NCBI GenBank assembly: GCA_030685215.1
Contig: JAUXQB010000147.1
Location: forward strand, 1-39,113
DNA: 39,113 bases
Origin: Actinomycetota bacterium
Lineage (GTDB): Bacteria > Actinomycetota > Acidimicrobiia > Acidimicrobiales > Ilumatobacteraceae
Direction of reading: 5' to 3'
Shown here in pieces: positions 5,172 to 19,923 of the stretch. Each line of letters starts with the position of its first letter. Position 1 is the stretch's first letter. The notes under the pieces were generated by a model. The model was not told where the DNA came from. It ran no database searches and saw only the letters and a list, made by a program, of their open reading frames with translations. The position numbers and the translations under genes were made by a program.

Positions 5172-6386
5172 TCAGGCGTCGGGCGCGGACTCGGCGGCGG
5201 CGGGCGCGGGATCGGCGGGCGGGGCGGCCTTCTTCTTCGGCGGGGGGACGCCGACGCTGGGGGCGGCGTCGGCCCACTGCGGCCAGCGGCGGCGGCTGAC
5301 GATGCTGAGCGTGCGCAGCAGCTTCATCGCCACTTCGTCCTCCTGCGCGGGACGAGCGATGATGGTGCCGTCGGCGATCATGCGGTTGATCACTTCCTCA
5401 CCGAGCTCGGTGCGCACGATGGTGAGGGTCCACGCATTGTCCTTGCCGATGCCACCGGTCGAAATGTCGGCGTGCTCGGCGGCGAAGTCGGGGCAGCTCT
5501 TGCAACCCTCGCGGGTCCAGCCGTGGCACTCCTTGAGGTCGATCTCGTGGTACGAGCCGTCCTTCATCCAGATCTGGAACGCGCCCTTGATGTTCATCTT
5601 CACCATGTCGGCCTTCTTCAGGCCGTACTTGGCCTCGAACAGCTCGGGGAAGATGGCGTCGTCGAACGTCTTCGAACACAGCAGGCCGATGTTGAACAGG
5701 AACGGCTTGCTCACCTTGCCGGCCTTGCGGTCCCACATGATGGGCGGCGAGCTGGTCTGGCAGCCCATGCCCACCAGCGCGAGCTTGGTGAAACCTTGCT
5801 CCTTCGCCTCACGCAGTGCCAGCGGGTTCGCGCAGTAGGTGTAGCGGCTGCCGGCGGTGGCCAGCACCTCCTCCTTGTTGCGGGCCAGCACCGGCTTCGC
5901 CTTCCATGCATCGTCGGGCTCGACACCGCTGACCATCGCGGCCTCGATGTAGTCGTGGTCCATCAGCCACGTGAGCATCGCGGTGACGAACCCGCCGTCC
6001 TGGCCCTTCTCGTGCTGCGTGTCGTCCGCCGCACGGGTGAGCAGCAGCTGCTTCCAGATGCCACCCATCTCGTCGGGCTCGCGCACGCGGCCGAACAGGT
6101 GCATGTCGGCCGCCGGCTCCCACGCCCGGAACCGTGGACACGCGCGGGTGCACGTGGTGCAGCCCTTCTCGCCGTGCACGCAGTTGTCGAGACCGAGCTC
6201 CTCCTCGAGGTGGAACGGCTTGTACTTGCCCTCCTCGTGCTCGTAGCCGATGACGTCGTGCGGACAGGTGACCACGCACCCCGCGCAACCCGTGCACAAC
6301 CCGGTGGTGATGACCTCCGCGTAGAGCTCCTTCCACTGGGCGGTCCAGCGGCCGGCCTGAGCGGGAGTCTCGAGAGTGTCGGTCAT
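5172..6386 (-). CDS. FrhB/FdhB-family iron-sulfur protein (coenzyme F420 hydrogenase/dehydrogenase beta subunit-like)
   Basis: 404 residues. Two ferredoxin-type 4Fe-4S motifs are complete: C31-x2-C34-x2-C37-x3-C41-P and C69-x6-C76-x2-C79-x3-C83-P. Then follows the FrhB/FdhB beta-subunit region ([60 protein letters not shown]). Members pass electrons between F420H2 (or FAD) and iron-sulfur clusters. The last 45 residues are a Pro/Ala/Lys-rich tail that is not part of the domain. No hydrogenase or dehydrogenase partner lies nearby, so the electron acceptor is unknown. Its ATG at 6386 overlaps the stop of the upstream surface-protein gene by 4 bp, and the hydrolase gene follows after 62 bp. Confidence 0.85.
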
Positions 6387-7582: not shown

Positions 7583-9922
7583 ATGCAGTCGGTCGATGCC
7601 GCCACCATCAAGCGAATGCGCACGCATCTCGTCGGCGATCCCCACCTCGCCGGGCGCACGCTCGCCAGGCGCCTGTCGCAGCAGGCCGACTCGTGGCTCT
7701 ATTCGCTGGCCTCCGACCTCCCTGCGGGGTGGGCCGTCATGGCCACCGGCGGCTATGCGCGAGGCGTGCTGTGCCCGGGCAGCGACATCGACGTGATGCT
7801 CGTCCACCCAGTGAAGGCACGCGACGCCGATGTGCGCGACGTGGCCCAACAGCTCTGGTACCCGATGTGGGACGGCGGGTTGAAGCTGAGCCCGGCCACG
7901 CACAACGTGAAGACGCTGCTCGCGTTGGCCGCCTCCGACCTCGACACCGCCACCGCGGTGCTGAAGGTGCGCTGCCTCGCCGGCGACCGCGACATGGTCG
8001 CCGACCTGCAGCGGCAGGCCGTCGAGCAGTGGCGGCGCAAGCCGATGGCGTGGCTGCAGCGGCTGCTCGACACCGGGCAGCAGCGGTGGACCAAGTTGGG
8101 CGACGTCGCCTCGCTCCTCGAGCCGGACCTGAAGGACGGTCGCGGTGGTCTGCGCGACCACGACATGATCCGGTGGGCACTCGCCGTCGACCGCCCCGAC
8201 GTCTCGGCTGCGTTCGACGGCCCGGTCGACGACCTCGCCGGGCCGGCCGACCTGCTGCTGGCCGCGCGCTGCGAACTGCACCGCGTCACCGGTCGCACGT
8301 CGAACGTCCTGCAGTTGCAGGATCAGGACAAGGTGGCCGAAGCGATGGGCTACGCCGATGCCGACTCGCTGATGCTGCAGCTGTCCGGCGCCGCGCACAC
8401 CATCGAGTGGGCGACGGAACGCTTCTGGCGCCGCATCGAGCGTCTGCTGCACGGCGGTCGCGGCACGTCGCGCACCGGAGCCACCATCGGCGCCGGCGTC
8501 ACCGTCATCGACGGCGAGGCGCACATCGCTGCCGACGCCGAGGTCGACGAACCGTCGTACGTGTTCCACCTCGCCGCCACCGCGGCCCACGCGGGGCTGC
8601 CGGTGAGCGTGCAGTCGTTGCAGATCCTCGCCAGCCGCGGTGCCGAGCCGGGCGAGCCGTGGAGCGAACGCACTCGTCGTTCGTTCCTCAGCCTGCTCGG
8701 CGCCGGCCAGGGGCTGGTGAGCGCCGTGGAGGCACTCGAGCGCTACGACCTCTTCAGCCGCTATCTGCCCGAGTGGCGGCACGTGCGCAGCCTGCCGCAG
8801 CGCAACGCGTTCCACACCTACACGGTGGATCGTCACCTGTTGCAGACCGTGGCGAATGCGAACGAGTTCGTGCGCGAGGTGTCGCGCCCCGACCTGCTGC
8901 TGTGCGGTGCGCTGCTGCACGACATCGGCAAGGGTCACCCCGGCGACCACACCGAAGTCGGCATGGAGCTCGTCGTCCGCATCGCCGACCGGATGGGGTG
9001 GCCGCCCGACGACATCGACACGCTCGTCGCACTCGTCGAACACCACCTCCTCATCGCGGAGACGGCCACTCGACGCGACCTCGGCGACCCGCGCACTGCG
9101 GCCAACGTCGCCGCGGCCGTGCAGAACCTCGGTCGGCTCGAACTGCTCGACGCACTCACTCGCGCCGACAGCCTCGCCACCGGGCCCTCGGCGTGGTCGG
9201 CCTGGAAGGCACGGCTCATCGACGAGCTCGTCGACCGCACGTCGCGGTTGCTGCGCGGCGACGGCCGCGCCGTCGAACCGTCGCGCGACGCCAACCGCTT
9301 CTCCGATCTCGTCGCCGCGGTCGCGGAGCACGGCGACATGCATCTTGAGCACGTGATGGAAGGCGAGTTCGAGGTGCTGCGCATCGCGAGCGCGGATCGC
9401 AGCGGTCTGTTCTCGCTCATCGCCGGCACGCTGTCGCTGCACGGTGTCGACGTGGTGGGCGCCGATGCGCACACCGGCCCCGACGGCACGGCGGTCGACG
9501 AGTTCCGCCTGTCTCGCGCGCAGGGCACCGCCGTTCCCTGGCAGCGCATCGAGCACGACCTGCGGGCGGCGTTGGCCGGCCAACTCGACATTCCCGGCCG
9601 GCTGTCGCAGCGCATCACCGCGCGGGCTCGCCGGCGTCCGGTAGCCGCCGCCTCCCCGCGGCGCGAGGTGATCATCAGCAACGAGGCGTCCGATTACACG
9701 ACGATGATCGACGTGCGCGCACCCGACGGCCCGTTGGTGCTGTACCGCCTGTCCAACGAACTGGTGGCGTCCGGCCTCGACATCCGCTCTGCGAAGGTCG
9801 CCACGCTCGGACACGAGGTGGTCGACGTGTTCTACGTGCACGCCAACGACGGTGGCAAGGTGCCCGACCACGAGCACGAGGCACTGCGTGCTCGTCTCAA
9901 GTCGGCACTCTCCGACGGCTGA
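7583..9922 (+). CDS. glnD: [Protein-PII] uridylyltransferase / uridylyl-removing enzyme
   Basis: Modifies and demodifies PII proteins on the T-loop tyrosine in response to glutamine (uridylylation in proteobacteria, adenylylation reported in actinobacteria). 779 residues against about 890 in E. coli, shorter at the N-terminus. Domains: nucleotidyltransferase with GGYARGVLCPGSDIDV at about 56-71; linker with LEPDLKDGRGGLRD; HD phosphohydrolase with intact LLHDIGKGHPGDHTE near residue 445; two ACT domains at about 596-645 and 706-760. All catalytic motifs are present, so both activities are expected. The ATG at 7583 is preceded by a weak ribosome site. It lies convergent to amt1-glnK1, whose PII product should be its substrate. 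Confidence 0.95.
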   Translation: MQSVDAATIKRMRTHLVGDPHLAGRTLARRLSQQADSWLYSLASDLPAGWAVMATGGYARGVLCPGSDIDVMLVHPVKARDADVRDVAQQLWYPMWDGGLKLSPATHNVKTLLALAASDLDTATAVLKVRCLAGDRDMVADLQRQAVEQWRRKPMAWLQRLLDTGQQRWTKLGDVASLLEPDLKDGRGGLRDHDMIRWALAVDRPDVSAAFDGPVDDLAGPADLLLAARCELHRVTGRTSNVLQLQDQDKVAEAMGYADADSLMLQLSGAAHTIEWATERFWRRIERLLHGGRGTSRTGATIGAGVTVIDGEAHIAADAEVDEPSYVFHLAATAAHAGLPVSVQSLQILASRGAEPGEPWSERTRRSFLSLLGAGQGLVSAVEALERYDLFSRYLPEWRHVRSLPQRNAFHTYTVDRHLLQTVANANEFVREVSRPDLLLCGALLHDIGKGHPGDHTEVGMELVVRIADRMGWPPDDIDTLVALVEHHLLIAETATRRDLGDPRTAANVAAAVQNLGRLELLDALTRADSLATGPSAWSAWKARLIDELVDRTSRLLRGDGRAVEPSRDANRFSDLVAAVAEHGDMHLEHVMEGEFEVLRIASADRSGLFSLIAGTLSLHGVDVVGADAHTGPDGTAVDEFRLSRAQGTAVPWQRIEHDLRAALAGQLDIPGRLSQRITARARRRPVAAASPRREVIISNEASDYTTMIDVRAPDGPLVLYRLSNELVASGLDIRSAKVATLGHEVVDVFYVHANDGGKVPDHEHEALRARLKSALSDG

Positions 9923-9961
9923 TCGGGTCGCACGCGAAAACGGGAAGAGCCGTGGCGGGCA

Positions 9962-9991
9962 ACCGACTCCCTGTCCGCCCAGGGAGTCGGT
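9962..9991. terminator. Bidirectional terminator between glnD and glnK1
   Basis: A perfect 12-bp stem, ACCGACTCCCTG at 9962-9973 with its complement at 9980-9991, encloses a 6-nt loop (tccgcc). It sits midway between the stops of two convergent genes. Runs of A (gaaaacggga) lie upstream and would be a U-run for the minus-strand transcript. Confidence 0.85.
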
Positions 9992-10024
9992 GTCCACCAC
10001 AGCTCTCGCCGGCGTGGTCGACGA

Positions 10025-11861
<1,837 letters not shown>

Positions 11862-11880
11862 GTTGTCTCCTGTGTGTTCG

Positions 11881-11898
11881 AGGGGCTAGAGGGGCTAG
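11881..11898. repeat. 9-bp tandem duplication in amt1 leader
   Basis: AGGGGCTAG is repeated twice in direct succession, 20 bp upstream of the amt1 start codon, in the expected 5' untranslated region. No function is assigned. Confidence 0.6.
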
Positions 11899-11951
11899 CA
11901 GAGAACTCGCCGCGGCGCTGGAGCGAGTGAGGCGCACCATACGGAGCCGAC

Positions 11952-12000
11952 GTTTCGCCGCCGTAGCCGCTTTGTTTCCGCACTGTGGCGCTCGCGTTCA
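11952..12000 (-). promoter_or_regulatory. Tandem GlnR-like box upstream of amt1
   Basis: Read on the minus strand towards amt1: GCCAC-n6-GAAAC-n6-GCTAC-n6-GAAAC (11989 down to 11952). The actinobacterial GlnR box is known as gTnAc-n6-GaAAc. Here both b-sites are exact, both a-sites differ at one base, and every spacer is exactly 6 bp, giving a strict 11-bp phase. A fifth phased element (plus-strand GTTCA, 11996-12000) may extend it. It lies 90-130 bp before the amt1 start, as expected for an activator site. Confidence 0.7.
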
Positions 12001-12044
12001 CCTGCCGGTCGCCTGACTCGCGGCCGCCATCGGTGTGGAGGCGC

Positions 12045-12184
12045 GGGAACGTTCCCGGGTCGAGCGTCGTGAGACGTGCGACCCGGGAACTGCCCCTTAC
12101 CGGAGACAGGAGTCTCCGGGCGCGTGAACGGCGAACCGTTCCGCTCTCGAGTGCCGGAGCCCGTCTCGGCACCACGACGTGGTG
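12045..12184 (-). other. Cluster of six hairpins/palindromes in the antiporter-amt1 gap
   Basis: The gap 11862-12275 (414 bp) has no gene. Its upstream half is packed with dyads: CACCAC/GTGGTG (12170-12175, 12179-12184); GTGCCG/CGGCAC (12151-12156, 12167-12172); GAACGG/CCGTTC (12126-12131, 12136-12141), with a UUCG loop on the minus strand; CCGGAGAC/GTCTCCGG (12100-12107, 12112-12119) with a 4-nt loop; a perfect 12-bp stem (12051-12062, 12079-12090) with an inner CGTC/GACG stem; and the palindrome GGGAACGTTCCC (12045-12056). It could be an antiporter 3' end with tandem terminators, a small RNA, or a structured element. I recognise no known riboswitch. Confidence 0.6.
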
Positions 12185-12275
12185 AGGTGATCGGACTGTA
12201 GCGATGGTGGATGACGCGCCCATCGCCTCTGCGTTGCCGCTCTGTGTCAGTCGTGTTCGCGTGCCCGAGTCGTGC

Positions 12276-14948
12276 TCAGCGTCGCAGCCGACGCGGTGTC
12301 CGACCCTCCGCGAGCGCCACTCTGATGCGGTCCATCGCGGGCGTGTCGAGCTTGCGGCCCAGCCGGTCGCTCACGGCAAGGCGGTCGTTGACCTGTTGAT
12401 CGGTCGTCGAGACGCGTGCCGTGTGCAGCACGACACCGGCGGTCGCGAGTGCCGAGCTCACCGCCAGCAGTGCCCCCGGTCGGTCGGGTCCGGTGACCAC
12501 CACGAGCGTGTGCCAGGGCAGCGCCGCGTTGTCGAACTCGATGTGCAGCGACGGCATGGCCACGGGGGCGAGGCGCTTGCGCAGACCGGCCTCGAACGCG
12601 AGCGAGAGCTCCTTCGCTCGCGGGCGATCGCGCGACACGACCACGAAGCTGTCGAGCACCGCGCCATCTGCCCACGTGGCGATGCTGGCGGCAGCGATGT
12701 CGAGTCCGTGCTGAGTGAGCACATCGGTCAGCCGCGCCAGGAGACCGTCGACGTCGCGGCAGGCCACGTCGATCTTCCACCGGTCGGGCTCGGGCAGTGG
12801 TGCCACCGCCACCCGGACGGTGCCGCTGCGGGGCAGTGGTTCCACCAGTTGCACCTGGCGCGCCAGCTCCTCTGCCTCGTGCGCGAGCAGGTAGGTGTTG
12901 CTCGCGAAGCGCAGGCGTTCGATGGGCGCGGGATCGGTGAGCAGTCGCTCCGCCGCCATGCGTCGCGCGCCCGCCAGATTGTTCGCCTCGCTGCCGGTCA
13001 GCTCCGGGTGCTCGAGCGCCTCGGTCACCATCGCCAACCGTGCGTCGAGCGCCTCGCGATGGCGACGTGAGAGCGGACCGAGCGCGAGCGCCAACTCGTA
13101 GGCGTCGCGTGCATGCGCGGCGCTCGCGAGGTGCGTGGCCAGTTGCAGGATCTCGCCGGGTTCGAACGCCTCGGGATCGTGTGCGCTCGCGCGCAGGAGG
13201 TGTGCGTCGGCGGCGATCGCCGCGATCCGCTCCGCTTCGTGCTCGGGCACCAGGCGGCGAGCGAGCGACAGTGCACAGGGTGCGTCGGCTTCGGTGTCGG
13301 CGCACACGTCGGCGGTGAGTGCGGCGATGATCAGGTCGTCGGTAGCCATCCCGAGAACGGGGGCGAGGTCGTCGAGGCGATCGACCACCGGGAACCGCAG
13401 CGCGCCCATCGGGTCGAGGTCGCCAAGGTCCGCGCGCCGATGACTCATCGCCTGGGCGACCTCGGGCAACGCGCGCTCGAGCACGCCGGTCACGTCGAGG
13501 AACCGCCACGCGCTCGGATTGGCGGTTCGCAGCAGACGGACGAGCGCGACGGTGTGGCCGTGGTTCCACGACACCGGTGTGTTGCGGTGCGCGGCGAACC
13601 AGTCGAGCACCTCCGCCGACGGGCGCGCGCTGATGGTGAGTCCGGCGGTGCGCAGGGCGAGTGGCACGATGAGCGAGCCGGGCGGTGTGCCGTTGAGACG
13701 GATCTCGCCCTGGGTGGTGGTGAGCCAGCCTTCGACCGGCTCGTCGGTGACATCGAGCTCCGGCGCCGCACTCGCCTTGCCGAGTCGCAGCCGCAGCAAG
13801 GGAGGGGTCATCACCGTCGTGAGCAGCACCACGATGAGCAGGGCGCCGTACTCGTCACCGTTCAGCACTTCGTTGGTGAGGCCGATCGACGCGAAGATCA
13901 GGCCGACCTCGCCGCGCGGGATCATGCCGAGTCCGATGAGCAGCTTGTCGGCCCTGGTTCCCATCGCACCAGCAGCGGCGGCCAGCTTGCCGAGCACCGC
14001 GACGACGCTCAACACTGCGGCGAGGCCGAGCACCGACGGCTTCGCCATCGCGGACAGATCCGCGTTGATGCCGATCTGCGCGAAGAACACGGGGATGAAC
14101 ACGTTGCCCACCGAGCCGAGGTCGCGGGCGATGCGATCGTGCTGGCGACTCTTCGACAGCCCGAGCCCGGCCATGAAGGCGCCGATGATGAAGGCGAGCT
14201 TGGCGGCGTCGGCCAGCTCGGCGAACGCGAGGGTGACGATCAGTGCCACGACCGTGACCGTGGCGGGCGAACTGGCGCGGCGGTGCACCGCGTCGAGCAG
14301 CCGCGGCACGAACAGCAGCCCGACGATGCCGGTGAGGACGAGGAATCCGATCGCCAGGCCGAGCGTCGACGCGACGGTGCCGACACCGACCGAATCGCCC
14401 GTGACCACCTTCACCACCACCGTCAGGATGACCAGCCCGAGCACGTCGTCGGCCACGGCGGCGCCGAGCACGATCCGGGCCTCCATGGTGGCGAGCGCGC
14501 GGAGGTCGCCGAAGACGCGAGCAGTGATGCCCACACTGGTCGCCGTCAGCGCAGCGCCGATGAAGATCGCGGTGTTCGTGCTCTGCCCGAACAGCAGCCC
14601 TATCCCGGCCCCACTGGCGAAGGGCACAGCGACTCCGATGATCGCGACGAGCAGTGAGGCCTTGCCCACCTTGCTCAGTTCGGCGAGGTCCATCTCCATG
14701 CCCACTTGCAGAAGGAGCAGCAGCACCCCGATCTCGGCGAACATCGCGAGCGACACGCCGCGTGCGTCGGTGAGCTCGATCAGCCCCAGTCCGGATGGGC
14801 CGATGGCGACACCGGCGAGGATCTCGCCGAGCACCGCTGGCAGCTTGAGTCGCTCCGCGCCCTCGGCCGCCAGCTTGGCCGCGGTGAGGACGATCAGCAG
14901 GTCGAGCAGCAGGCGTGCGAGATCGACGCCCTCTGTGGCCGCGATCAC
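12276..14948 (-). CDS. CPA2 cation/proton antiporter fused to a GlnD-like degenerate HD + ACT-ACT module
   Basis: 890 residues. Residues 1 to about 395 form a Kef/NapA-type antiporter with about 12-13 membrane segments, [10 protein letters not shown] near the start, and a transport-site Asp pair in [10 protein letters not shown] as in electrogenic CPA2 Na+/H+ exchangers. From about 405 the chain is soluble and follows the in-window GlnD segment by segment: a pre-HD stretch ([13 protein letters not shown] against the HLAATAAHAGLPVSV region), a helical part ([10 protein letters not shown] against DLFSRYLPEW), then an HD-like region near 535-580 where LLHDIGKG has become LTADVCAD, losing the metal-binding His-Asp pair. 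Two ACT domains follow (about 721-770 and 811-868). No KTN/RCK domain is present. GTG at 14948 overlaps the upstream winged-helix stop (GTGA). A longer ATG start at 15008 is possible but would overlap that gene further. Substrate and ligand are unknown; glutamine sensing by the ACT pair is inferred. Confidence 0.85.
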
Positions 14949-15244
14949 GCCGGATCGCTGGCCAGCAGCGCTTCCGCTGCGGGCACCGCGTGATCGGCCA
15001 GCATCCATCCGCGGCTGCGGACGGTGACGATCGACTCCGGGCCCAACTGCCGCCGCACTCCGACCAGCACGCTGTCGCAGCGACGCTGGTTCAGCTCTGC
15101 GAGTCCCGCTTGGCGGGCCAGCTCACGCCGACCCACTACTCGATTGCGGTTGGCGAGCAGTACGGCCAGCACAGCCCGCTCCTGTCGGCCCTGATACGCG
15201 AGGGGGTTGGCATCGAAGCTCGAAGCAGGAGCGAGGCTGGCCAT
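14945..15244 (-). CDS. Lone OmpR/PhoB-type winged-helix protein, 99 residues
   Basis: Consists of little more than one Trans_reg_C winged helix: [19 protein letters not shown], the helix pair around [19 protein letters not shown], and the C-terminal wing [11 protein letters not shown]. No receiver domain or membrane segment is present. It resembles the C-terminal half of the divergent regulator at 15349. ATG at 15244; the stop overlaps the antiporter-fusion start (GTGA), so the two are probably made together. It could be a dedicated transcription factor for this operon, or a partner or decoy of the divergent regulator. Its target is unknown, but phased repeats lie directly upstream. Confidence 0.75.
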
Positions 15245-15266
15245 GACGAGAAGCTAAGGGGTCCAG

Positions 15267-15305
15267 GTTTCGCGACTGTTCGGCGCGTGTGAACGCACTG
15301 TGAAC
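15267..15305. promoter_or_regulatory. 11-bp-phased operator between divergent winged-helix genes
   Basis: TGTGAAC occurs at 15288-15294 and exactly 11 bp later at 15299-15305. In the same phase lie GTTTC (15267-15271), GTTCG (15278-15282), GTGAA (15289) and GTGAA (15300). OmpR-family proteins bind head-to-tail half-sites one helical turn apart. GTTTC is the complement of the GlnR b-site GAAAC, and the GTTCAC form of the repeat also recalls the Streptomyces PHO box. Autoregulation is likely. Confidence 0.6.
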
Positions 15306-15348
15306 CGGGTTCGAAGATGTTCGCGGACGTGTTGTTCATCGTGCGGAA

Positions 15349-15900
15349 ATGCCGCCGCAGCGACGTTGCCATACCATCCGACAGGTGAACGAGCTCGCGG
15401 AGCGATGCAACCGGATCGCCGGCATGCCGGTCGAGTTCGTCGCCTGGCCTGCCGACGAAGGGCGTCGCCGGGCGCTCGCCCGGGCTGCCATTCCGCGCCT
15501 GCTGCTCGTGGCCCCCGACGTCGACCCGCCGGTCGTCGGCATCGACGAGGACTGGATCCGACTGCCGGCGACCGAGTCCGACGTGCTGGCGAGAGCCTCG
15601 CAACTGCTGCGCCATGGCACCCAGCTGCAGTCCGACGTGCCGTTCATCGACGGTGAGCGAGTGCTGCACCGCGCCGGCATGACGGTGGTGCTCACGTCCA
15701 CCGAAGCAGCCATCCTGTCGAAGCTGCTCGATCACGTCGGCACCGTGGTCGGCTACGACGAGCTCGCGGAGTCGGTCTGGCACCGCTCGCTCTCCCGCGT
15801 CGCGATGGAGGCCGCGATCTACCGCCTCCGGCGCCGGCTCGACGGGCTGCACGTGCACATCGCGGCAGTGCGCGGCCGCGGCTACGTCCTGTCGCTCTGA
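15349..15900 (+). CDS. GlnR-like orphan OmpR-family regulator
   Basis: 183 residues. The C-terminal half is a clear OmpR-type winged helix (VLTSTEAAILSKLLDHVG, YDELAESVWH, AAIYRLRRRLDG, and the wing VRGRGYVLSL). The N-terminal 100 residues form a short, acid-poor receiver-like domain (RLLLVAPDVDPPVVGIDEDWI) with no obvious phosphorylatable Asp pocket. GlnR, the global nitrogen regulator of actinobacteria, has this atypical orphan-receiver layout but is longer (about 220-270 residues). With GlnR-like boxes before amt1 and amt2 this is the best candidate regulator of the island. The start is uncertain: ATG 15349, GTG 15385 or ATG 15424. Divergent from the lone winged-helix gene. Confidence 0.7.
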   Translation: MPPQRRCHTIRQVNELAERCNRIAGMPVEFVAWPADEGRRRALARAAIPRLLLVAPDVDPPVVGIDEDWIRLPATESDVLARASQLLRHGTQLQSDVPFIDGERVLHRAGMTVVLTSTEAAILSKLLDHVGTVVGYDELAESVWHRSLSRVAMEAAIYRLRRRLDGLHVHIAAVRGRGYVLSL

Positions 15901-16025: not shown

Positions 16026-17589
<1,564 letters not shown>

Positions 17590-17638
17590 CGTCGCTCCTG
17601 TGTTCGTGTGGGGTTGGCCGTCAGAATGGCGATGGTTT

Positions 17639-17676
17639 GTTTCGGCAGGATTTCCTCGCAGCATCGGCTCCGTGAA
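17639..17676 (-). promoter_or_regulatory. Weak GlnR-like phased site upstream of amt2
   Basis: On the minus strand GAAAT-n6-GAAAC (17654 down to 17639) is preceded, in the same 11-bp phase, by GATGC and TTCAC. Only the GAAAC-type half-sites match the GlnR b-site, and the a-sites are poor. The core TTTGTTTC-[CG]-GCA on the plus strand is shared with the site before amt1. Gap 17590-17715 holds nothing else I recognise. Confidence 0.4.
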
Positions 17677-17715
17677 CAGGCCGCCCCGTTGTGTGTGGTT
17701 GCCCGCGGCCGACGG

Positions 17716-18573
17716 TCAGTCGGTTCGCGTGCCGGGGCCGCGGTACACGAACCAGTACACCAACCCCACCAACACCGCCCCACCGATGATGTTGCCGATG
17801 GTCACCGGCAGCAGGTTGTCGATCAGGAAGTGCTGCCACGTGACGTGCGGGTAGGCGCTCGCGGTCGTGTCGCCGGCGACCCAGAACTCGTCGGACGCCC
17901 ACGACCGCTGCGCCAGAGCTACGGGGAAGAAGTACATGTTTGCCACGCTGTGCTCGAACCCGGCGGCCACGAACGCGGCGATCGGCGGCACGATGACCAC
18001 CACCTTGTCGATCAACGTGCGCGCCGACATCGTCATCCACACCGCGAGGCACACCAGGCAGTTGGCCAGCACCGCGCTCGCGATCGCAGCGCCGAACTCC
18101 ACGCTGCCCTTCGTCTCCGCGATCTGCAGGGCGCGCACGCCCACGTCGCCGGTGCCGGCCGACAGCCGGCCCGAGGCCACGACGACCACCGCGGTGGCCG
18201 CAGCGCCGACGAAGTTCGACACGTACACGACCAGCCAGTTGCGCAGCAGCGCTTTCGTCGTGACGCGCCGGCTGGCGGCGGCGATGACGATGAGGGTGTT
18301 GCCGGTGAACAGCTCCGCGCCGCTCACCACCACCAGGATCAGGCCGAGCGAGAACACGACGCCGCCGAGCAGTCGAGTGACCCCCGGTGCGCTGCCGCCG
18401 CCGGCGGTGACCACGGTGGCGAAGTTGGCGCCGAGCGCGATGAACGCGCCCGCCAGCACGCCCAGCGGCACCAGCCGGCGCAACGGCATGTTGGCCTTGG
18501 TGACGCCCACCTGCTCGGCTTTGGCGGCCATGTCGGCGGGGAGCAGAGCATCGAGCGAGGCGTCGCTGGCCAT
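17716..18573 (-). CDS. Formate/nitrite transporter family channel (FocA/NirC type)
   Basis: 285-residue membrane protein with the six-helix FNT fold. Family motifs: GAFIALGANFATV in the first segment, GAELFTGNTLIVIAA in the second, NWLVVYVSNFVGA, AGFEHSVANMYFFP, and NLLPVTIGNIIGGA. FNT channels pass formate, nitrite or hydrosulfide. Upstream of amt-glnK, nitrite is the likeliest substrate (inference). ATG at 18573. An N-terminal stretch of about 20 polar residues precedes the first helix. It diverges from an acyl-CoA dehydrogenase. Confidence 0.92.
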   Translation of the reverse strand: MASDASLDALLPADMAAKAEQVGVTKANMPLRRLVPLGVLAGAFIALGANFATVVTAGGGSAPGVTRLLGGVVFSLGLILVVVSGAELFTGNTLIVIAAASRRVTTKALLRNWLVVYVSNFVGAAATAVVVVASGRLSAGTGDVGVRALQIAETKGSVEFGAAIASAVLANCLVCLAVWMTMSARTLIDKVVVIVPPIAAFVAAGFEHSVANMYFFPVALAQRSWASDEFWVAGDTTASAYPHVTWQHFLIDNLLPVTIGNIIGGAVLVGLVYWFVYRGPGTRTD

Positions 18574-18658
18574 ACCGTCACCGTACGACGCGGCAAGCGC
18601 CCTGACCAGGGACTTTCGTCGACCGAGCGCGTTCGCCGGTGGCTGGACTGGCGGGGAC

Positions 18659-18674
18659 TTGACCCGCGGGTCAA
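18659..18674. promoter_or_regulatory. 16-bp perfect palindrome before acyl-CoA dehydrogenase
   Basis: TTGACCCGCGGGTCAA is a perfect dyad ending 10 bp before the acyl-CoA dehydrogenase ATG. Its position over the start region suits a TetR-type repressor site. It could also influence the divergent transporter gene about 86 bp away. No matching regulator gene is visible here. Confidence 0.6.
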
Positions 18675-18684
18675 TACTTGTGCC

Positions 18685-19923
18685 ATGGACCTGATCTACG
18701 CCCCCGAGGACGAAGCGTTCCGCACCGAGATTCGGAGCTGGTTGGAGACCAACCTGCCCGCCGGATGGTTCGATCCCGACTTCGAGATGACCCCCGAGGA
18801 CCGCAAGGAGTTCAACGCCGGCTGGCCCGCCAAGCTGTTCGAAGGTGGATGGATCTGCGCCACCTGGCCCAAGGAGTACGGCGGCAAGGGCCTCACCACC
18901 ATGCAGGGCGTCGTGCTCTCCGAGGAGTTCGCCCGCGCGAAGGCGCCACTGCGCGCCGACTTCTTCGGCGACACGCTGGTCGGCCCCACCATCCTGCAGT
19001 GGGGCACCGAGGAGCAGAAGAAGGAGTTCCTGCCGCAGATCCTCAACGGCACCATGCGCTGGTGTCAGGGCTTCAGCGAGCCCAACAGTGGCAGCGACCT
19101 CGCCTCGTTGAAGACCACCGCGGTGCTCGACGGCGACGAGTGGGTCATCAACGGCCAGAAGGTGTGGACCACCGGTGGCCACCACGCCGACTACTGCTTC
19201 CTGCTCACCCGCACCGACCCCGACTCGCCGAAGCACAAGGGCATCAGCTACCTGCTGGTGCCGATGCACCAGCCCGGCGTGGAGGTGCGCGGCATCACCC
19301 AGCCCGACGGCACCGCTGAGTTCTGCGAAGTGTTCTTCGACGACGCGCGCTGCCCGAAGGACAACGTGGTCGGCGGCGTCAACAACGGCTGGAAGGTGGC
19401 CAACAGCACGCTCGCGTTCGAGCGCGGCATGAGCGCCACCACCGGCTACCGCCGCTTCGAAGAGGAGTTCAAGCTGATGCTCGCCGACGCCACCGAGAAC
19501 GGCGCCATCCACGAGCCGCTCGTCCGCCAGCGCATGATGGAGTACTACACGAAGATCCAGCTGCTGCGCATCAACGGCCTGCGGTCGCTGTCGTCCACGC
19601 TCGCGGGCACCAAGGACATGGGTGTCGCTGCGCTCGGCGCCACCAACAAGATGTTCTGGACCGAGATGCACAAGGCGGCCATGGAGCTCGCGCTCGACAT
19701 CAAGGGTGCGTCGTCGATGCTCATCGACACCGGGTCCGGGGCCGGCTCGTGGCCGGGCACGTCGCGCGACAAGGGTCGTCCCGGCTACCCGGTGAGCCCG
19801 ATGATGAGTGCGTTCTTCTTCAGCCGCAGCGAGACCATCTGGGGCGGCACCAGCCAGATCCAGCGCAACATCGTCGGCGAGCGAGTGCTCGGTCTCCCCA
19901 AGGAACCCCAGACCGCCCAATAG
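18685..19923 (+). CDS. Acyl-CoA dehydrogenase
   Basis: 412-residue FAD enzyme that introduces a double bond between C2 and C3 of an acyl-CoA. Domain order is normal: helical N-terminus, middle beta domain with GFSEPNSGSDLASL and the flavin-contact stretch INGQKVWTTGG, C-terminal helical domain ending in GGTSQIQRNIVGERVLGLP. The variant with GMSATTGYRRFEEEF suggests the long-chain or sterol-side-chain type seen in many actinobacterial copies rather than a classical short-chain enzyme. Substrate not determinable. ATG at 18685, shortly after the palindrome. It stands alone on its strand. Confidence 0.93.
   Translation: MDLIYAPEDEAFRTEIRSWLETNLPAGWFDPDFEMTPEDRKEFNAGWPAKLFEGGWICATWPKEYGGKGLTTMQGVVLSEEFARAKAPLRADFFGDTLVGPTILQWGTEEQKKEFLPQILNGTMRWCQGFSEPNSGSDLASLKTTAVLDGDEWVINGQKVWTTGGHHADYCFLLTRTDPDSPKHKGISYLLVPMHQPGVEVRGITQPDGTAEFCEVFFDDARCPKDNVVGGVNNGWKVANSTLAFERGMSATTGYRRFEEEFKLMLADATENGAIHEPLVRQRMMEYYTKIQLLRINGLRSLSSTLAGTKDMGVAALGATNKMFWTEMHKAAMELALDIKGASSMLIDTGSGAGSWPGTSRDKGRPGYPVSPMMSAFFFSRSETIWGGTSQIQRNIVGERVLGLPKEPQTAQ

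Follow-up and report, generated by a model that had tools for sequence, protein, structure and literature searches.

A gene of Actinomycetota that joins a NapA-type antiporter to a GlnD-like tail lacking the nucleotidyltransferase

We describe a gene of Actinomycetota in which a CPA2 antiporter continues, in one reading frame, into a soluble tail that resembles the signalling protein GlnD. The antiporter-GlnD fusion is real, and we propose that it works as an electrogenic NapA-type exchanger of Na+ (or another monovalent cation) against H+ whose activity would be set directly by the dead-GlnD tail acting as a nitrogen sensor. We regard this functional reading as evenly poised between right and wrong.

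RESULTS

One frame encodes the antiporter and the tail

The gene lies in a window of 39,113 nucleotides (the whole stretch of DNA that was analysed), for which an earlier note had reported one continuous antiporter plus GlnD-like frame at 12276-14948. These coordinates are right and the strand is minus (Table 1); the plus strand of the interval has stops in the frame read. On the minus strand a single frame spans 12276..15008 and yields 910 amino acids from an in-frame ATG at 15008, while the GTG at 14948 yields the N-terminus VIAATEG. The 890-aa product of the GTG start appears likelier, because several homologues begin near this position; residues are numbered here on the 910-aa frame. Pfam matched Na_H_Exchanger (PF00999) at residues 49-405 (E = 1.5e-60) and ACT (E = 7.2e-13). 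NCBIfam matched the CPA2 model TIGR00932 (E = 1.4e-52) and the GlnD model TIGR01693 at residues 677-900 (E = 8.7e-19), all NCBIfam matches being below the model cut-offs and that to TIGR01693 far below, as expected for a partial GlnD. An AF2 model of the whole fusion, computed from a 35-sequence alignment, reached a mean pLDDT of 86 and a pTM of 0.51, too low to predict how the two halves are placed relative to each other.

Table 1. Features of the fusion gene and of its surroundings in the window
Feature	Position	Strand	Basis
Fusion gene	12276..14948	minus	GTG start, 890 aa + stop
NapA-type CPA2 antiporter domain, residues 32-406	13791..14915	minus	Pfam PF00999, phmmer, Foldseek
Asp pair D187-D188	14445..14450	minus	aligned with NapA D156-D157
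K341	13986..13988	minus	aligned with NapA K305 (TM11)
GlnD-derived helical linker and degenerate HD-like domain, ~residues 424-720	12849..13739	minus	hhalign without ACTs, AF2
LTADVCAD where GlnD has LLHDIGKG	13296..13319	minus	joint alignment
ACT domain 1, ~residues 732-810	12579..12815	minus	Pfam ACT-type match 745-792, AF2
ACT domain 2, ~residues 822-901	12306..12545	minus	Pfam ACT 835-889, AF2
Ammonium transporter Amt, downstream	10422..11861	minus	PF00909 E=1.1e-99; same strand as fusion
P-II protein GlnK	10025..10363	minus	PF00543 E=3.2e-29
Complete GlnD, convergent	7583..9922	plus	NF002895 697.7 bits, above cut-off
Second Amt, upstream	16390..17664	minus	PF00909 E=2.8e-119
Second GlnK	16026..16364	minus	PF00543 E=1.3e-32
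Winged-helix (OmpR/PhoB-type) regulator, divergent from fusion	15349..15900	plus	PF00486 only, E=2.2e-12

The membrane half resembles NapA

In a search of PDB sequences, NapA of Thermus thermophilus ranked first (4bwz; phmmer E = 1.6e-60 over residues 32-406), followed by KefC (E = 3.3e-16), and Foldseek of the whole-protein AF2 model returned NapA 5bz2 with a TM score of 0.91 (of target) and an rmsd of 2.1. By sequence and predicted fold the full membrane domain is homologous to NapA. The CPA2 antiporter with an Asp pair that had been noticed earlier is thus borne out by PF00999, by the NapA match and by the Asp pair itself, which together with the TM11 lysine is invariant in 18/18 aligned fusions. 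The site comprises five residues (D, D, K, R and E), and all of them are kept in 20/20 fused, short-tailed or tail-less members and likewise in 13/13 solitary antiporter relatives. The QD motif of the KefC type is not present, the fusion having DD instead, and no RCK/KTN (TrkA_N) domain was matched by Pfam in the fusion at an E of 0.001. K305 of NapA forms a salt bridge with D156 of the DD motif, whereas KefC has QD instead of DD and is electroneutral (passages of PMC11150392). Because DD and the TM11 lysine mark electrogenic Na+/H+ exchangers, the site residues predict such an exchanger for the antiporter half.

The tail resembles GlnD without its enzymatic parts

Comparison by hhalign of 25 C-terminal halves with seven GlnDs of the class gave a probability of 99.6 and E = 4.6e-24 over 441 columns, collinear with GlnD 300-779. 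The ACT domains do not carry this match alone, because the part preceding them matched GlnD by itself (E = 3.6e-8, score 68; controls: at most 27.1 over 40 column shuffles and 19.3 when reversed). The same part gave E = 0.27 against the nucleotidyltransferase part of GlnD, no Pfam match to PF01909 or PF08335 was obtained in the fusion, and the hhalign match begins only at GlnD 300. From the collinear match, together with TIGR01693 matches in 25/25 C-terminal halves, the tail reads as GlnD minus its nucleotidyltransferase.

In order to follow the HD positions, 34 fusions and two stand-alone C-terminal halves (n = 36) were aligned jointly with seven GlnDs and numbered according to E. coli GlnD, in which the positions listed below are HD metal ligands, as is known for the HD family. 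Equivalents of His464, His471 and Asp597 are each kept in 0/36 sequences, that of His556 in 1/36, that of His514 in 4/36 and that of Asp515 in 31/36; the stretch containing His524 is deleted in 34/36. A separate AF2 model of the C-terminal half (mean pLDDT 87.6, pTM 0.72) has both ACT domains formed. The top Foldseek matches of this model were sub-threshold: they included ACT enzymes (aspartate kinase, ACT-like domains; target TM 0.72-0.76) and also a tRNA nucleotidyltransferase (TM 0.34), as suits an ACT pair that follows a nucleotidyltransferase-associated helical part. No GlnD was found among the PDB sequences searched.

The earlier note had described about 485 soluble residues tracking GlnD from the pre-HD linker to the C-terminus, with the nucleotidyltransferase absent, the HD motif ruined and two ACT domains retained, and each of these points held when examined by profiles, Pfam, the 36-sequence alignment and the AF2 models. 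It had also suggested comparing this half with GlnD by profile and by structure: the profile comparison gave a match, whereas Foldseek gave none with E up to 0.001. A role of the tail as sensor rather than enzyme is supported.

Residues of the ACT ligand regions

GlnD is the bacterial glutamine sensor and its ACT domains are held to bind glutamine (parts of PMC3173338 and PMC4285133). The Asp of the ACT2 loop is found in 13/14 fusions and the Gly also in 13/14 (GlnDs: 27/27 and 23/27), and for the ACT1 loop the respective counts are 13/14 and 11/14 (GlnDs: 27/27 and 26/27). A simple motif (regex) search over 34 fusions recovered the ACT2 loop in 28/34 and the ACT1 loop in 23/34. By descent, glutamine would be the likeliest ligand.

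ACT domains bind many amino acids, and the tail might gate the antiporter by reading an amino acid or nitrogen metabolite other than glutamine. Such a ligand would fit residues specific to the clade: a Trp in the ACT1 hairpin (14/14 fusions and 2/2 stand-alone C-terminal halves, 0/27 GlnDs), a Pro-Trp preceding ACT2 (14/14 fusions) and the loss of a Tyr after the GLL of ACT2 that is present in 22/27 GlnDs but in 1/14 fusions. We consider another ligand rather doubtful, though a serious contender, as the loop Asp and Gly are mostly kept and GlnD ancestry and the amt neighbourhood favour glutamine. Separately, we observed that the in-window GlnD (7583-9922) is short, with 779 aa, and that its second ACT domain has DGPLVL where most GlnDs show an Asp-x-x-Gly loop.

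The fusion recurs and its tail is under purifying selection

Among 100 relatives searched (own genome included), 23 carry the protein as one match that extends over 870 residues or more. Within the class, one uninterrupted match covers no fewer than 870 of the 886 positions in 19 of 296 genomes, and beyond these G119 and G258 carry the fusion in two pieces of one frame; the genomes come from several orders. A survey of 396 genomes of the phylum yielded the full fusion in two outside the class (G381 and G395, one family), the second class being represented by five examined genomes. The best 80 loci of a named collection include 23 unbroken full-length fusions, titled mostly Acidimicrobiia, Ilumatobacteraceae or Actinomycetota; L045 is titled Acidobacteria, yet has the same neighbours as the other fusion loci. 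Among the matches listed, 47 loci (L066 to L112) comprise the antiporter part only.

dN/dS values of the C-terminal half range from 0.035 to 0.355 in 10 pairs and those of the antiporter from 0.043 to 0.252 in nine fusion pairs, with the C-terminal half evolving faster in 7/9. The C-terminal half is under purifying selection. The assembly consists of 340 contigs, one of which is the window, and an assembly join, named by the earlier note as what would speak against the fusion, could in principle have produced it. We reject such an assembly or sequencing chimera as practically negligible: the single frame is found again in several orders of the class as well as in another class of Actinomycetota, 23/23 full-length named loci run without a stop from the antiporter start to the C-terminus, the C-terminal half is under purifying selection and the trees described below fit one origin. 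Spread by plasmid was also discarded, the C-terminal half having no match in the plasmid collection. As a side observation, many ~1 Mb genomes of the class in family f50 carry a solitary NapA-like antiporter of ~410 aa without tail.

Origin and natural variants

In a tree of the C-terminal halves built on shared columns, the fusions and the stand-alone half of L139 separate from the rest with a support of 0.963, and the fusions with both stand-alone forms separate from all 27 GlnDs with a support of 1.000. The fusion group stands beside GlnDs of other classes (0.930) and not beside the in-window GlnD; branches in this tree are long, and it is thus moderate evidence. The in-window GlnD shares only 20% identity with the C-terminal half of the window, and against the profile of the C-terminal halves GlnDs from other actinomycetotal classes reach higher scores (up to 209 bits) than do GlnDs from the window's own class. 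An origin from the in-window GlnD was considered and is unsupported by this long-branched tree. In the antiporter tree, 20 fused, short-tailed and tail-less members stand apart from 13 solitary homologues. The simplest history suggested by these sequences would be one dead GlnD, one fusion and later losses.

Several variants were found. A short-tail clade (L058, L060-L063, L141; 593-598 aa) combines the antiporter with a conserved dead-HD tail of ~190 residues without ACT domains and still adjoins amt, usually also glnK. L142 has the antiporter without tail in a 435-aa frame. Conversely, L139:9655-11112 encodes the C-terminal half by itself, 484 aa starting with MRPADGWL, and immediately precedes glnD; its position within the fusion group of the tree suggests loss or separation of the antiporter at this locus. 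L148:1474-3078, from another class of the phylum, encodes a stand-alone, dead GlnD half without nucleotidyltransferase and HD beside malate synthase. Branching outside the fusions, it could represent the kind of protein that was fused.

That the short-tail clade and one tail-less member survive at the same locus, with the antiporter kept beside amt, is what one would expect if the tail were a remnant that serves, if anything, for dimerisation or stability as a structural element, and its faster evolution relative to the antiporter points the same way. We nevertheless judge a leftover tail quite improbable, considering that dN/dS is well below 1 in all 10 pairs, that the full-length frame is kept across classes and that the ACT folds are intact in the AF2 model.

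The fusion is often encoded beside amt

Two amt-glnK pairs and a convergent glnD flank the fusion in the window. An Amt gene lies within 6 kb of 32/53 distinct fusions and of 20 of the 28 among them that have at least 3 kb on both sides, loci with near contig ends being left out of the 28; it is located downstream or upstream, usually within 700 bases. Nine near-duplicate rows (97/100 residues: L042, L044, L064, L126, L127, L128, L129, L131 and L162) had been dropped before arriving at 53, and several of them adjoin Amt as well. By our own arithmetic, with the 1-4 Amt genes found in a genome of 2-4 Mb, adjacency by chance would be on the order of one per cent. Many loci also have glnK close by, and both families of the second class have Amt upstream of the fusion. 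The amt, glnK and glnD neighbours support the link to nitrogen drawn earlier.

The neighbourhood would also suit a glutamine-controlled exporter of ammonium (NH4+/K+) that relieves ammonium overload, as proposed in the earlier note by analogy with AmhT: amt adjoins 20/28 well-flanked distinct fusions. This analogy is weakened by the membrane half, since the nearest solved relative is NapA and the invariant DD and TM11 Lys site is of the electrogenic Na+/H+ type, not the QD of the K+/H+ exchanger KefC, and we consider ammonium export unlikely.

No Amt gene is close to the other eight of the 28 well-flanked fusions. Amt-less loci fall mainly into two groups: the first comprises reduced genomes with an F420 dehydrogenase-like gene directly downstream of the fusion, the second has a winged-helix regulator directly upstream. 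The regulator of the window (15349-15900, 183 aa) has no Pfam receiver match, and in the distant loci L055, L160, L161 and L163 a homologue immediately precedes the fusion. It is possibly GlnR-like; family models gave only general OmpR/PhoB-type matches below cut-off. A three-part fusion including the regulator in L163 was dismissed, the regulator being in another frame. We also observed that an F420-dehydrogenase-beta-like gene (5172-6386) and an acyl-CoA-dehydrogenase-like gene (17608-19923) are conserved neighbours in many loci of the family, for which no reason is evident. Rfam gave 0 matches in the window, and a scan of 9900-15400 gave 0 promoter-like and 2 terminator-like elements (1.5 expected).

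Several fusion genomes lack P-II and another GlnD

We surveyed 37 genomes for P-II: 33 with the fusion (the copy of G059 being interrupted by masked bases) and four with variants. No P-II protein was found in 8/33 fusion genomes (G001, G004, G019, G043, G044, G059, G077 and G183; completeness 89-98%) in a search at E 1e-10, and none came over cut-off when E up to 1 was allowed; 13/14 control genomes were positive. PF08335 was absent in 7/8 of these genomes, and in G077 its sole occurrence is as two copies within a 1478-aa frame that looks like GlnE. The best TIGR01693 match in each of the eight is the fusion itself, Amt is kept in 7/8, and in G001 and G004 amt begins 77-107 bases after the fusion. 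The tail therefore cannot need a P-II partner in these genomes, and the fusion is their sole GlnD-type protein.

These genomes bear on the idea that GlnK docks onto the dead GlnD part and then would control the antiporter. GlnK is a substrate of GlnD (part of PMC4285133) and glnK is near in many loci; the genomes without P-II disfavour docking as a general role, and we regard it as very unlikely. The tail is probably a direct, P-II-independent nitrogen sensor that acts in cis. Furthermore, we tentatively suggest, with somewhat less than even confidence, that the GlnD-antiporter provides a P-II-bypassing route from the glutamine pool to ion flux and is the only GlnD-type sensor left in several Actinomycetota, where it would operate alongside Amt with no P-II protein present.

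DISCUSSION

In the proposed mechanism the cytoplasmic tail would be a dead GlnD that keeps its helical scaffold and two amino-acid-binding ACT domains. It would sense the nitrogen state of the cell, to judge from its ancestry most likely as glutamine, and could change the activity of the attached antiporter directly, P-II not being the messenger. This step is modelled on the RCK tail of KefC, a 13-TM CPA2 antiporter controlled by a C-terminal ligand-binding dimer (passages of PMC11150392). Glutamine might either open or close the exchanger. Because the fusion is often encoded beside amt, we propose that the antiporter probably balances the proton, charge, pH or sodium/cation effects of ammonium uptake and assimilation against the glutamine pool. 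Transport by AmtB involves NH3 and H+ and carries a net charge (part of PMC10433425). A search among openly licensed papers yielded none that describes an antiporter fused to GlnD or to ACT domains.

If the proposal is true, glutamine as the universal nitrogen signal would act on membrane energetics without an intermediary, a connection generally held to run via P-II proteins and transcription. The control of ammonium uptake in Actinomycetota without P-II or GlnD would become testable. The system offers experimental handles: a soluble module of ~490 residues for ligands, a transporter of known fold for gating, and a natural series of variants with full tail, dead-HD tail without ACT domains, no tail or a stand-alone sensor.

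With respect to known systems, NapA of Thermus thermophilus (CPA2; PDB 4bwz, 5bz2) shares the whole membrane domain, the DD motif and the TM11 lysine with the fusion, but its PDB chain stops with the membrane domain (384-394 residues) where the fusion adds a GlnD-like tail of 480 residues. GlnD, the PII uridylyl-/adenylyltransferase, has the linker, the position of the HD fold and the two ACT domains in common with the tail, in the same order; unlike GlnD, the fusion is without nucleotidyltransferase and HD ligands and is joined to a membrane protein. In the K+/H+ exchanger KefC a CPA2 antiporter is likewise followed by a regulatory tail that binds ligands; this tail is a nucleotide- and glutathione-binding RCK domain in KefC (passages of PMC11150392) and HD-ACT-ACT in the fusion. 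Finally, Arabidopsis ACR11 is a stand-alone, non-enzymatic relative of the ACT pair of GlnD and a proposed glutamine sensor (part of PMC3173338); unlike the fusion it is soluble, resides in the chloroplast and comes without an HD-like part and without a transporter.
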